A DNA stretch of 64,000 nucleotides from Streptomyces kaniharaensis (GTDB lineage: Bacteria > Actinomycetota > Actinomycetes > Streptomycetales > Streptomycetaceae): assembly GCF_009569385.1 (NCBI RefSeq), contig NZ_WBOF01000001.1:5309501-5373500 (forward strand). Direction: 5' to 3'. The position numbers and the translations under genes are program-made. The notes under the pieces were generated by a model. The model was not told the origin of the DNA, did no database searches, and worked only from the letters and a program-made list of their open reading frames with translations. Positions 60,892 through 64,000 of the stretch are shown one piece after another. The number at the start of each line of letters is the position of its first letter. Positions within the stretch are counted from its first letter, which is position 1.

Positions 60892-61533
60892 CTACCAGTC
60901 CCGACCGGCGATCTCCCGGATCCCGGGCAGGGCCGCCTCGAAGACCGTGTCGAACCAGACCGAGAACGTCCGCTCGGCCCGCAGCTCCCGCAGCTCCTGC
61001 GCGGTGACGAAGGCGTGGTCGTCCACCTCGTCCGGGTCGGGCCGCACCGGCGCGGTGACCAGGCCCACGAACAGGTGGTTCCACTCCCGCTCGATCAGCC
61101 CGGAGGCCTCGTCCGGCAGGTCGTAACGGACGTTCCCGGCCTCGCAGAGCAGCGCCGGGGCGACGCCCAGCTCCTCGGCGGTGCGGCGGGCGGCGGCGAC
61201 GAACGGCGCCTCGCCCGGGTACGGGTGGCCGCAGCAGGTGTTCGACCAGACGCCAGGCGAGTGGTACTTGCCGAGCGCGCGGCGCTGGAGCAGCAGTCGC
61301 CCCTGGCGGTCGAAGAGGAAGACCGAGAACGCCCGGTGCAGCCGGCCCGGCTGCTGGTGGGCCCAGAGCTTCTCGGCGGTGCCGATCGTGACGCCCTCGT
61401 CGTCGACCAGTTCCAGCAGGATCTCGTCGGTGCCGGCGGCCCCCGGGTCGGCCGCTACGTCGGTCTCCACGTCGAGGCCGGTGTCGACCTCTGAGGTGAA
61501 GTGCGTCGGGTTGGTCGGCGGACTCTGGGGCAT
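60892..61533 (-). CDS. idi: Isopentenyl-diphosphate delta-isomerase, type I
   Basis: A 213-residue Nudix-fold enzyme converting IPP to DMAPP. Catalytic residues are visible: the Cys in WSNTCCGHPYPGE (C100/C101) and the Glu in REWNHLFVG; metal-binding His residues lie in RLHRAFSVFLFD and CCGHP. About 35 extra N-terminal residues are acidic and probably disordered. ATG 61533 follows AGAGG. It lies on the other strand from a putative polyol-phosphate lipid operon; in streptomycetes idi often sits near isoprenoid/hopanoid genes, which could lie beyond the right edge. Confidence 0.94.
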   Translation of the reverse strand: MPQSPPTNPTHFTSEVDTGLDVETDVAADPGAAGTDEILLELVDDEGVTIGTAEKLWAHQQPGRLHRAFSVFLFDRQGRLLLQRRALGKYHSPGVWSNTCCGHPYPGEAPFVAAARRTAEELGVAPALLCEAGNVRYDLPDEASGLIEREWNHLFVGLVTAPVRPDPDEVDDHAFVTAQELRELRAERTFSVWFDTVFEAALPGIREIAGRDW

Positions 61534-62006
61534 GGGGCCTCTTTCGGGAGCGGGAGCGACGGGAGCATCGGGTGCGTCCGGTACACGGATGCAGCGGACG
61601 CAGCGGGGGCACCCGCGCCGGCGTCGGGCTCCAGTCTGCCGTATGGGTGGCGGTAGGCACCGGTCCCACGCACAACCGGGCGGATCATGACTCTCCAGGG
61701 GTCTTTTCCGGGCACGGGAGGACTCGACAGGGCCCCGGAAGGGTCACGGAGGTAGCAGGTCAGTTCGGAGGTCGTTCGACGCGCGTTCGGCCCCGTCCCA
61801 CACTGCTCCCGGTCCACTCCCGGCCACCACTCAGTCACCTCCCAGCTGCCCGGCCGCGTTCGGGCTGGTCGCCACGGTCGCCTACCATCACTTACGACAC
61901 GGTGCCCGCATCTGCGCCGGCACCGGCGCGCCGCTGTGCGGCCCGGCCGACGAGTGCCGGCGCCCCGGCGCGCCCGCGCACAGCACGACGGATCAGGAGA
62001 CCTCGC
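61534..62006. other. 473-bp divergent region, idi / nucleotidyltransferase
   Basis: No gene recognised. The frame of the nucleotidyltransferase is open back to 61572, but the translation is not conserved. TACCAT near 61883 in CGCCTACCATCACTTACG is a plausible plus-strand -10, giving a leader of about 110 nt that is strongly GC-rich and can fold (CGGCACCGGCGCGCCG, GCGCCGGGGCGC). Minus-strand CATACGGCAGACT near 61640 could serve idi. Confidence 0.5.
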
Positions 62007-62762
62007 ATGATCGGCCTCGTTCTGGCAGCCGGCGCCGGCCGCCGGCTGCGCCCGTACACCGACACACTGCCCAAGGCGCTGGTGCCGGTCGACGGGGAGC
62101 GGACCGTCCTGGACCTCACGCTCGGCAACTTCGCCGAGGTCGGGCTGCGTGAGGCCGCGGTCGTCGTCGGCTACCGCAAGGAGGCCGTGTACGACCGCAA
62201 GGCCGCCCTGGAGGGCAAGTACGGCGTCAAGCTCCACCTGGTCGAGAACGACAAGGCCGAGGAGTGGAACAACGCCTACTCCCTGTGGTGCGCCCGCGAC
62301 CTCTTCGCCGAGGGCCTGCTGCTGGCCAACGGCGACACCGTCCACCCGGCCTCCGTGCAGCGCACCATGCTGGAGGGCAACCAGCGCCTCACCGAGGCCG
62401 GCCGGGCCCCCGGCATCCTGCTCGCCCTCGACACGGTGAAGAAGCTCGCCGACGAGGAGATGAAGGTCGTCGTCGACCCGGCCGCCGGCATGCGCCGCAT
62501 CACCAAGCTGATGGACCCGGCCGACGCGACCGGCGAGTACATCGGCGTCACCGTGATCAACCCGTCCGCCGCCGTCGACCTGACCGACGCCCTGCGCGCC
62601 ACCTACGAGCGCGACCCGCAGCTGTACTACGAGGACGGCTACCAGGAGATGGTCAACCGGGGCCTGCGGATCGACGTGCAGCCGATCGGCGAGGTGTCCT
62701 GGGTCGAGGTCGACAACCACGACGACCTGGCGAAGGCGCGGGAGATCGCGTGCCGGTACTGA
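62007..62762 (+). CDS. Sugar/polyol-phosphate nucleotidyltransferase
   Basis: A 251-residue NTP transferase. MIGLVLAAGAGRRLRPYTDTLPKALVPV is the nucleotide-binding signature (G-x-G-x-R...PK), VGYRKEAV and LANGDTVHP (metal Asp) follow, and WVEVDNHDDLAKA is the C-terminal metal-binding Asp region. The short single-domain form resembles CTP:phosphocholine and inositol-1-phosphate cytidylyltransferases rather than glucose-1-phosphate enzymes. It probably activates a polyol phosphate or choline-like phosphate as CDP derivative for the phosphatidyltransferase two genes on. AGGAGA precedes ATG 62007; the 3' end overlaps the next gene by 13 bp. Confidence 0.85.
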   Translation: MIGLVLAAGAGRRLRPYTDTLPKALVPVDGERTVLDLTLGNFAEVGLREAAVVVGYRKEAVYDRKAALEGKYGVKLHLVENDKAEEWNNAYSLWCARDLFAEGLLLANGDTVHPASVQRTMLEGNQRLTEAGRAPGILLALDTVKKLADEEMKVVVDPAAGMRRITKLMDPADATGEYIGVTVINPSAAVDLTDALRATYERDPQLYYEDGYQEMVNRGLRIDVQPIGEVSWVEVDNHDDLAKAREIACRY

Positions 62763-63811
62763 CCCGACTGGTCCCGTCGCCGCTCTTCGTCGAGATCCGC
62801 CCGGGCGCGCTGGACGCGCTCGGCGGCATCCTCGCCGACCAGCGGCTGTCGGCCTCGGGCCGGATCGCGGTGGCGATCAGCAACGGCTCCGGCGCCGCGA
62901 TGCGCGAGCGCCTGGAGCCGGCCCTGCCCGGCGCCGACTGGTACAACGTGGACGACGGCAGCCTGGACAGCGCGGTGCGCCTGGCCGAGGCGATGCGCGG
63001 CGGGCACTACGACGCGATCGTGGGCCTCGGCGGCGGCAAGATCATCGACGCCGCCAAGTACGCCGCGGCCCGGGTCGGCCTGCCGCTGGTCGCGGTGGCC
63101 ACCAACCTCGCCCACGACGGCATCTGCTCACCGGTCTCCACGCTCGACAACGACGCCGGCCGGGGCTCCTACGGGGTGCCCAGCCCGATCGGCATCGTCG
63201 TCGACCTGGACGTGATCCGGCAGGCCCCGCCGCGCTTCGTGGCGGCCGGCATCGGCGACGTCATCTCCAACATCTCAGCCTGCGCGGACTGGGAGCTGTC
63301 GCACGCGGTCACCGGCGAGCCGGTGGACGGACTGGCTGTGGCGATGGCCCGCTCGGCGGGCGAGAACCTGCTGCGCCACCCCGGGAGCCTCGGGGACCGG
63401 GACCTCCTGACGGCGCTGGCGGAGGCCCTGGTACTGTCCGGCATCGCGATGAACATCGCGGGCAGCACCCGTCCCTCGTCGGGTGCCTGCCACGAGATCT
63501 CGCATGCCCTGGACGTGCTGTATCCCAAGCGGTCCGCCCAGCACGGCGAACAGGTCGGCCTCGGCGCGGCGTTCGCCAGCTTCCTGCGGGGCGAGCGCGA
63601 GCTGACCGGCCTGATCGTGGAGCGCCTGGCGCGCCACGGACTGCCGGTGACCGCCGCTCAGATCGGCTTCACCGAGGCTGAGTTCACCGAAGCGGTGCAC
63701 TACGCTCCAAACACCCGCCCGGGCCGTTTCACCATCCTCGAGCACCTCGACCTCTCCCCCTCAGCAATCAGGGACGCGTACGCCGACTATGTCCAAGCCG
63801 TCAACAGCTGA
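62750..63811 (+). CDS. Glycerol-1-phosphate dehydrogenase-like enzyme (Fe/Zn-ADH superfamily)
   Basis: A 353-residue dehydrogenase of the G1P dehydrogenase/AraM-like group. The NAD(P) site is IVGLGGGKIIDAAKYAA; metal ligands are expected in the NISACADWELSHA segment, in SSGACHEISHALDVL and in SAQHGEQVGLG. Archaeal homologues make sn-glycerol-1-phosphate for ether lipids; bacterial AraM makes it for heptaprenylglyceryl phosphate. GTG 62750, with GGAG just upstream, lies inside the preceding gene, so translation is coupled. Overlap with the next gene continues the operon. Confidence 0.87.
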   Translation: MPVLTRLVPSPLFVEIRPGALDALGGILADQRLSASGRIAVAISNGSGAAMRERLEPALPGADWYNVDDGSLDSAVRLAEAMRGGHYDAIVGLGGGKIIDAAKYAAARVGLPLVAVATNLAHDGICSPVSTLDNDAGRGSYGVPSPIGIVVDLDVIRQAPPRFVAAGIGDVISNISACADWELSHAVTGEPVDGLAVAMARSAGENLLRHPGSLGDRDLLTALAEALVLSGIAMNIAGSTRPSSGACHEISHALDVLYPKRSAQHGEQVGLGAAFASFLRGERELTGLIVERLARHGLPVTAAQIGFTEAEFTEAVHYAPNTRPGRFTILEHLDLSPSAIRDAYADYVQAVNS

Positions 63812-64000
63812 CCCCTCCACCGCGGGCGCCGAGCGGCCCCCGGTGGACCTGACCCGCCGGCCCTCGATCGAGGAGCTGCGCGCGGTGATCCACCCCGAGG
63901 GCATGCTCCAGCGCCGCAGCGCCGAGCACTGGGCCGGGCGCCTCTACATGCGGAAGATCTCGCTGCGGATCACCCGCGTGCTCTCCACCATGACGGCGAT
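63789..64000 (+). CDS. CDP-alcohol phosphatidyltransferase family, N-terminus only
   Basis: The first 70 codons before the window ends. The visible part reads SIEELRAVIHPEGMLQRRSAEHWAGRLYMRKISLRITR, a soluble amphipathic N-terminus of the sort seen before the first membrane helix of actinobacterial CDP-alcohol phosphatidyltransferases; the DG(x)2AR(x)8G catalytic motif would lie beyond the edge, so the assignment is by context and style. ATG 63789 overlaps the dehydrogenase gene by 23 bp. Confidence 0.55.
   Translation, partial: MSKPSTADPSTAGAERPPVDLTRRPSIEELRAVIHPEGMLQRRSAEHWAGRLYMRKISLRITRVLSTMTA

Follow-up and report, generated by a model that had tools for sequence, protein, structure and literature searches.

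At the end of a 64,000-nucleotide stretch of the Streptomyces kaniharaensis genome (assembly GCF_009569385.1, 8.77 Mb; contig NZ_WBOF01000001.1, positions 5,309,501-5,373,500), hereafter called the window, three overlapping genes on the + strand begin an operon whose predicted products are a nucleotidyltransferase (NTase), a dehydrogenase (DH) and a membrane protein (PT) with the fold of the cytidine diphosphate (CDP)-alcohol phosphotransferases (CDP-AP). A preliminary description of the window had placed and identified these genes in the same way, and this observation is confirmed by the domain searches; its interpretation, a pathway for an unusual polyol-phosphate or ether-type lipid linked to isoprenoids, is partly supported. 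The genes of the operon are listed below; those past position 64000 were read from the stretch L007, whose coordinates plus 62000 give window coordinates.

62007..62762, + strand: NTase, cytidylyltransferase-type nucleotidyltransferase, COG1213-like, of LicC/IMPCT type, 251 amino acids (PF00483 NTP_transferase, E 6.7e-12)
62750..63811, + strand: DH, sn-glycerol-1-phosphate dehydrogenase-like enzyme, 353 amino acids, GTG start (PF13685 Fe-ADH_2, E 2.1e-28)
63789..64000, + strand: 5' part of PT, CDP-AP-fold membrane protein, 283 amino acids, gene end at 64640 beyond the window (PF01066 CDP-OH_P_transf, E 7.4e-9)
L007:2637-3575: GT2 glycosyltransferase gene, overlapping the PT gene by 4 bp
L007:3712-4653: permease gene of the ABC-2 (ATP-binding cassette) type, beginning 136 bp after GT2
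L007:4646-5455: ABC ATPase gene (TagH-like)

The NTase and DH genes overlap by 13 bp and the DH and PT genes by 23 bp, and the G+C content at third codon positions (GC3) is 0.98 for the NTase and PT genes. The overlapping order NTase-DH-PT-GT2 is maintained across the Streptomycetaceae, and it is found again in five of five loci of the f17 family (L069-L073), where hopanoid genes are absent from the stretch fetched. The predicted functions suggest, with about even confidence on our part, an envelope operon that uses CDP-activated glycerol phosphate; CDP-(sn-1-)glycerol would be the donor, and the exported product a glycerophosphate glycolipid or a polymer of the teichoic type.

The closest solved relatives of NTase (phmmer against the PDB) are LicC (1jyk, E 1.4e-13) and then the IMPCT-like 4jd0 (E 2.4e-8). 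Its residues R13, K23 and D110 align with active-site residues named for the IMPCT/CpgD family (PMC12275187), and sequence similarity together with these R, K and D places NTase in the COG1213 type; it would be a CTP-type transferase acting on a phosphorylated polyol. DH scores 237.3 bits against NF002022, the NCBIfam equivalog model of the sn-glycerol-1-phosphate (G1P) dehydrogenases (G1PDHs), and 88 bits against the glycerol dehydrogenase model NF006941; because the NF002022 cut-off of 413 bits is missed, DH is named G1PDH-like and not filed as a member. Its best PDB relatives are G1PDHs (4rgq first, E 4.9e-43), and in a 19-sequence tree, which includes three partial PDB sequences and does not resolve the placement inside the G1PDH side, DH clusters with the archaeal enzymes and with Clostridium 3ce9, apart from the glycerol dehydrogenases, with 100/100 support. 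The motifs DGI-SP, GIGD, SRP-SG, HGE and RYTIL are common to DH and the archaeal enzymes. In the alignment with 4rgq and 5fb3, DH also has the Asp and two His that we take to be the metal ligands, in GIGD, SHALD and QHGEQ. By its family, DH would reduce dihydroxyacetone phosphate to G1P; the G1PDH alignment presented in PMC5059525 contains a Streptomyces sequence. The earlier idea that a polyol phosphate is activated with CTP is supported by the grouping of DH and by the closeness of NTase to LicC.

PT is encoded in 70/70 genomes of the same genus, and its closest named relatives are those of Streptomyces sp. LS1784 (96%), Streptomyces sp. CBMA156 (95%) and Kitasatospora sp. A2-31 (94%); judged by these, the organism is a Kitasatospora-like member of the Streptomycetaceae, probably Kitasatospora as GTDB defines it. 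The predicted model (predicted local distance difference test, pLDDT, 88.7) has a six-helix CDP-AP fold, with AF2299 (4o6n) as best match (Z 18.1, root-mean-square deviation, rmsd, 4.5, 225 aligned); against IPCT-DIPPS (4mnd) Z is 16.9, rmsd 2.7 with 193 aligned. CDP-alcohol phosphotransferases fill the top 19 places among the structural matches, a protein of other function is absent from the fold-search listing, and the closest sequence profile is 4o6m (E 7.3e-18). The third gene has therefore not turned out to be unrelated to CDP-alcohol transferases, the outcome that the preliminary description had named as fatal to its reading; PF01066 and the fold agree with the coupling role given to it there, but the canonical catalytic Asp is missing. 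The family signature, D1xxD2G1xxAR...G2xxxD3xxxD4, is described as absolutely conserved, D4 being the likely catalytic base, and in a mycobacterial relative a D4-to-Asn change nearly abolished activity and left binding unspoilt, according to PMC4634129. PT reads DCVDGEVAR-x8-G-x3-D-x3-H (sequence DCVDGEVARWRRQTSLTGVYLDRVGH), with seven of the eight signature residues and His138 at D4. No Asp was found at D4 among the PT rows compared, in which some genes are present twice; 43 of the 80 named Streptomycetaceae loci have His and 37 have Ala, the latter in most Streptomyces. D1, D2, G1, A, R, G2 and D3 do not vary across an alignment of 47 sequences, which suggests that the PT family retains the nucleotide and metal site without the catalytic base. 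Either a different group serves as base, or the acceptor requires none, or PT is non-catalytic; by its signature, PT is a family homologue and not a canonical CDP-alcohol phosphotransferase. The absence of the fourth signature Asp in the PT family is new in this analysis.

The position four residues after D4 covaries with it: Glu accompanies His in 43/43 loci and Asp accompanies Ala in 37/37 (L099-L178, kinship uncorrected). As the two positions switch as a pair, they may work together.

In many relatives the operon starts with the gene of a second transferase, PT2, which has three parts: an N-terminal IspD-like domain (Z about 13), a CDP-AP domain that keeps the four signature Asp, and DUF5941, a domain whose function Pfam lists as unknown. 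Its predicted model (pLDDT 86.1) has a ten-helix cholinephosphotransferase-like fold and superposes over residues 159-586 on the cholinephosphotransferase 8ul9 (Z 21.1, rmsd 4.1, 311 aligned), so that DUF5941 would correspond to the additional membrane helices found in that class. PT2 has been lost from the S. kaniharaensis genome and a relic remains, lying between idi, which we do not judge to be part of the operon, and NTase.

60892-61533, - strand: idi, isopentenyl-diphosphate isomerase, divergent neighbour called as an open reading frame; idi is annotated at the same place in S. fungicidicus
61823..61933, + strand: relic of the DUF5941 part of PT2, in the idi-NTase gap (PF19365 positions 103-139, E 5.5e-6)
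61966..62010, + strand: remnant of the PT2 3' end, reaching the NTase start codon (46 columns, 80% identity to the end of the L086 gene)
L086:5939-7963 and L142:6432-8216: PT2-DUF5941 genes in relatives

Over 61849-61933 the relic matches the intact L086 gene with 90% DNA identity (86 columns, 2 gaps). Full-length DUF5941 is found in 9/70 genomes of the genus, the remaining 61 having fragments or no match, and PT2 is present in 36 of the 37 loci with Ala-type PT; the contig of the remaining locus is 5.7 kb long. In a 14-row alignment, from which L110 was left out as its start motif was not found, 11 of the 12 rows that lack PT2 still have the relic piece GTCGCCTACCAT, Streptomyces humicola among them; this suggests that the kept piece around GTCGCCTACCATCAC may be a promoter inside the lost gene that outlived it. 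The gap beside idi, earlier called a promoter region, holds this relic, which the preliminary description had missed, as it had the lack of the fourth signature Asp in PT.

Some further observations concern the same genes. A second PT paralogue in the same genome (G000:C1:1955274-1956041; L068:9763-10545), with 53% identity and Ala at D4, has as neighbours a YidC homologue and proteins without Pfam match; within the genus the paralogue occurs in 0/9 genomes with full-length PT2 vs 33/61 without (p 0.0025, kinship uncorrected). The actinomycete genomes of L084 and L085 (1.3 and 1.6 Mb) have a His-type PT and a PT2-like transferase with few other operon genes. In S. fungicidicus, idi is separated from the operon by a cation diffusion facilitator gene and galE (L190:8051-10114), neither of which is in the 475-bp gap of the window.

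The teichoic-acid context was examined in S. kaniharaensis, in 17 loci from outside Streptomycetaceae (L069-L085, picked for spread and not randomly) and in 296 genomes of the class, using self-chosen cut-offs (PT E<1e-40, DH E<1e-60, hopene cyclase over the model cut-off), co-occurrence lists copied by hand, and statistics uncorrected for kinship. Strong PT was found in 101 of these genomes, strong DH in 72 and hopene cyclase in 67; PT is present in 65 of the 72 DH genomes and, outside Streptomycetaceae, in 37/44 (p 3e-18). The ATPase scores 175 bits with the TagH model NF010066 (cut-off 320) and 143 bits with the galactan Wzt model (cut-off 400). Three strong PF04464 (TagF-type polymerase) proteins are encoded in the S. 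kaniharaensis genome, all unlinked to the operon, and TagD has no match there at E 0.001; this combination, too, is new in this analysis. TagD passes its cut-off in 3/296 class genomes; a TagD-model match of about 109 bits or more occurs in 22, none of them among the 72 DH genomes (p 0.003), an exclusion that may come from shared ancestry, most of the 22 being one family. In 15/28 Streptomycetaceae the TagD model has weak matches, of 68 bits at most, and another CTP transferase may therefore exist there. A second IspD/TarI was also considered and rejected, the genome holding one strong IspD (224 bits) and no clear TarI, with extra matches of 35 and 32 bits only. Among the outside loci, TagGH-like ABC genes lie near PT-GT2 in 7/17 and PF04464-like genes in 4/17 (L075, L077, L082 and L083; E 1e-6 to 1e-9, over the Pfam cut-off). 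In L077 an IspD-SDR fusion stands beside PT-GT2, a layout known from CDP-ribitol synthases.

The block itself is already known as teichoic-acid related: a 2026 synteny paper groups CDP-alcohol phosphatidyltransferase, GT2, tagG, tagH, araM, nucleotidyltransferase and crtB and ties these clusters to teichoic acid biosynthesis and secondary metabolism, its passages on them giving no mechanism (PMC13118837). Streptomyces hygroscopicus is described as having a poly(glycerol phosphate) lipoteichoic acid (LTA) that hardly differs from its wall teichoic acid (WTA), and LtaS as lacking clear orthologues in actinobacteria, the route of LTA synthesis being left open in that account (PMC3196553). In Bacillus, WTA is built from sn-glycerol-3-phosphate and LTA from G1P, and the two are enantiomeric (PMC7086022). 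Among open-licence papers, no report was found on the function of this operon, on DUF5941 or on a teichoic acid with G1PDH and CDP-glycerol in actinobacteria; literature exists on SCO6751-SCO6756, and judging by titles none of it deals with this operon.

The proposed route would run as follows. DH would reduce dihydroxyacetone phosphate to G1P, from which NTase, with CTP, would make CDP-glycerol of the sn-1 series. PT, embedded in the membrane and using this soluble donor, would move glycerol phosphate to a membrane acceptor, by a mechanism that would be unusual given the His or Ala in place of the catalytic Asp; PMC4634129 describes AF2299 and DIPPS as suited to, or preferring, soluble donors such as CDP-glycerol. 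GT2 would then add a sugar, and the TagGH/Wzm-Wzt-like ABC pair would export the product.

Several points weigh against this route. Each chemical step rests on family membership and its substrates are predicted; DH falls short of its equivalog cut-off and the ATPase of the TagH one, and the loss of D4 could make PT no transferase at all. PF04464 polymerases were not found in the operon, and none was recognised nearby in 13/17 outside loci among the part of their genes that was scanned. Moreover, 36/101 PT genomes are without strong DH, so that some of them may use a polyol other than G1P. CpgD, a COG1213 enzyme, gave no product with G1P in the experiments described in PMC12275187, and related polymerases accepted both enantiomers of racemic CDP-glycerol (PMC8262930), so that stereochemistry is not readable from sequence.

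One competing explanation is a link to hopanoids. The genes hpnC, hpnD, hpnE, prenyl synthase (called from position and the S. fungicidicus annotation), shc, hpnH, dxs and an aminotransferase follow the ATPase gene in this order, and hopanoid genes are thus indeed present beyond position 64000, where the preliminary description had advised to look for them; hpnC-hpnD-hpnE-shc adjoins the operon in the majority of the 80 named loci from Streptomycetaceae and is likewise annotated in S. fungicidicus. The operon could then supply these hopanoids with a head group, either glycerophosphate or a sugar, a role that we consider quite improbable. A hairpin lies 3' of the ATPase gene (L007:5450-5530, -50.3 kcal/mol, z -5.05), and one is present in 54/54 measured relatives, each of -21 kcal/mol or stronger, with a median of -37.5 vs -21.8 kcal/mol in a coding control taken from 30 loci at most; 20/74 loci were left out for a computed gap <40 or >900 nt, and the hpnC starts are approximate. 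In the GT2-permease gap no hairpin above the coding background was found (median -17.7 kcal/mol, 70 measured). The conserved hairpin therefore probably marks the end of the operon ahead of hpnC, and the hopanoid genes would be a separate unit. Across all 296 genomes DH is associated with hopene cyclase (32 with both, p 1.4e-6), an association that stems from Streptomycetaceae; outside this family 7 genomes have both, 37 DH only and 35 cyclase only (odds ratio 1.02, p 1.0), and the two are independent. Moreover, G346 (locus L087) keeps the operon without a hopene cyclase match, the f17 genomes have DH-PT without the cyclase, and G310 has its PT locus on one contig (C22) and the cyclase on another (C39). 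In view of the hairpin, the co-occurrence figures and the gene order, we rejected the hopanoid role as the principal explanation: the operon probably forms a transcription unit apart from the hopanoid genes and, outside Streptomycetaceae, shows no co-occurrence with hopene cyclase. The link to isoprenoids drawn earlier from idi falls with it.

The ether-type lipid once suggested for these genes, in which G1P is coupled to prenyl diphosphate as in Bacillales, would agree with the grouping of DH with archaeal G1PDHs and with the nearby idi and polyprenyl synthase genes; it is very improbable and was rejected, no PcrB/GGGPS match being found in the genome by a search that was positive in 7/14 control genomes, and such a pathway having no place for NTase and a CDP-AP-fold protein. 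Another polyol phosphate, of the arabinitol, ribitol or inositol type for instance, might be handled in place of G1P, as the DH score under the G1PDH cut-off would allow and as the activating enzymes found beside PT without DH would suggest (IspD-SDR in L077, MobA-like NTP transferases in L078 and L085); the G1PDH motifs of DH and its G1PDH relatives in the PDB make this rather doubtful. We find it unlikely, too, that PT only assists PT2-DUF5941 as a scaffold, flippase or acceptor-binding subunit without catalysing the transfer, and that PT2-DUF5941, with its four Asp and ten-helix fold, is the true transferase. His or Ala at D4 in 80/80 named loci, the mycobacterial Asp-to-Asn result reported in PMC4634129 and the company that PT2 keeps with Ala-type PT are in favour of such a partnership; the invariance of the remaining signature residues (three Asp, Gly, Ala, Arg) is against it, as is the persistence of PT without PT2 in S. 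kaniharaensis and in the 61 of 70 genus genomes without full-length DUF5941.

The CDP-glycerol route has parallels in several known systems. AF2299 and IPCT-DIPPS of Archaeoglobus share the fold and closest sequence profile of PT, and their pairing with an IPCT-type cytidylyltransferase is also seen in the operon; unlike there, the cytidylyltransferase is a separate gene, a G1PDH-like gene lies between, and PT has His or Ala at D4. As in the Bacillus WTA pathway (TagD, TagB/TagF, TagGH), a CDP-polyol donor is expected together with a TagGH-like exporter, and PF04464 enzymes are encoded elsewhere in the genome and, in some relatives, near PT-GT2; the differences are the lack of a TagD match, a donor predicted to be the sn-1 enantiomer and made by unrelated enzymes, and a membrane CDP-AP-fold protein in place of TagB. 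DH resembles the AraM/EgsA G1PDHs in grouping and motifs, but it is without a PcrB partner in the genome and is linked to CTP activation. In the Caulobacter CpgD pathway a COG1213-type enzyme activates a three-carbon phosphate for lipid decoration, the acceptor there being a sphingolipid and G1P not a substrate, as described in PMC12275187. PT2-DUF5941 of the relatives would resemble the eukaryotic choline/ethanolamine phosphotransferases CPT1/CEPT1, on which its predicted model superposes over the region given above, but it carries an IspD-like N-terminal domain.

A more specific form of the CDP-glycerol route, which we regard as improbable, would be an actinobacterial pathway in which archaeal-type G1P, by way of CDP-G1P, gives poly(glycerol phosphate) teichoic acid, or the lipid anchor of it, with the stereochemistry of Firmicute LTA. 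PT could then do without a base since its acceptor would already be ionised; were this polyprenyl phosphate, for example, the product would be a lipid-diphosphate-glycerol primer, which is not known from this enzyme family. A G1PDH-type enzyme, a cytidylyltransferase and a TagGH-like exporter, together with TagF-type polymerases and no TagD match, make the question of actinobacterial LTA testable. If the CDP-glycerol route is true, G1P would serve bacteria for something other than ether lipids, and the mechanism accepted for CDP-APs could be put to the test with a family that lacks the usual base; the operon could thus help to explain how these bacteria make teichoic acids.

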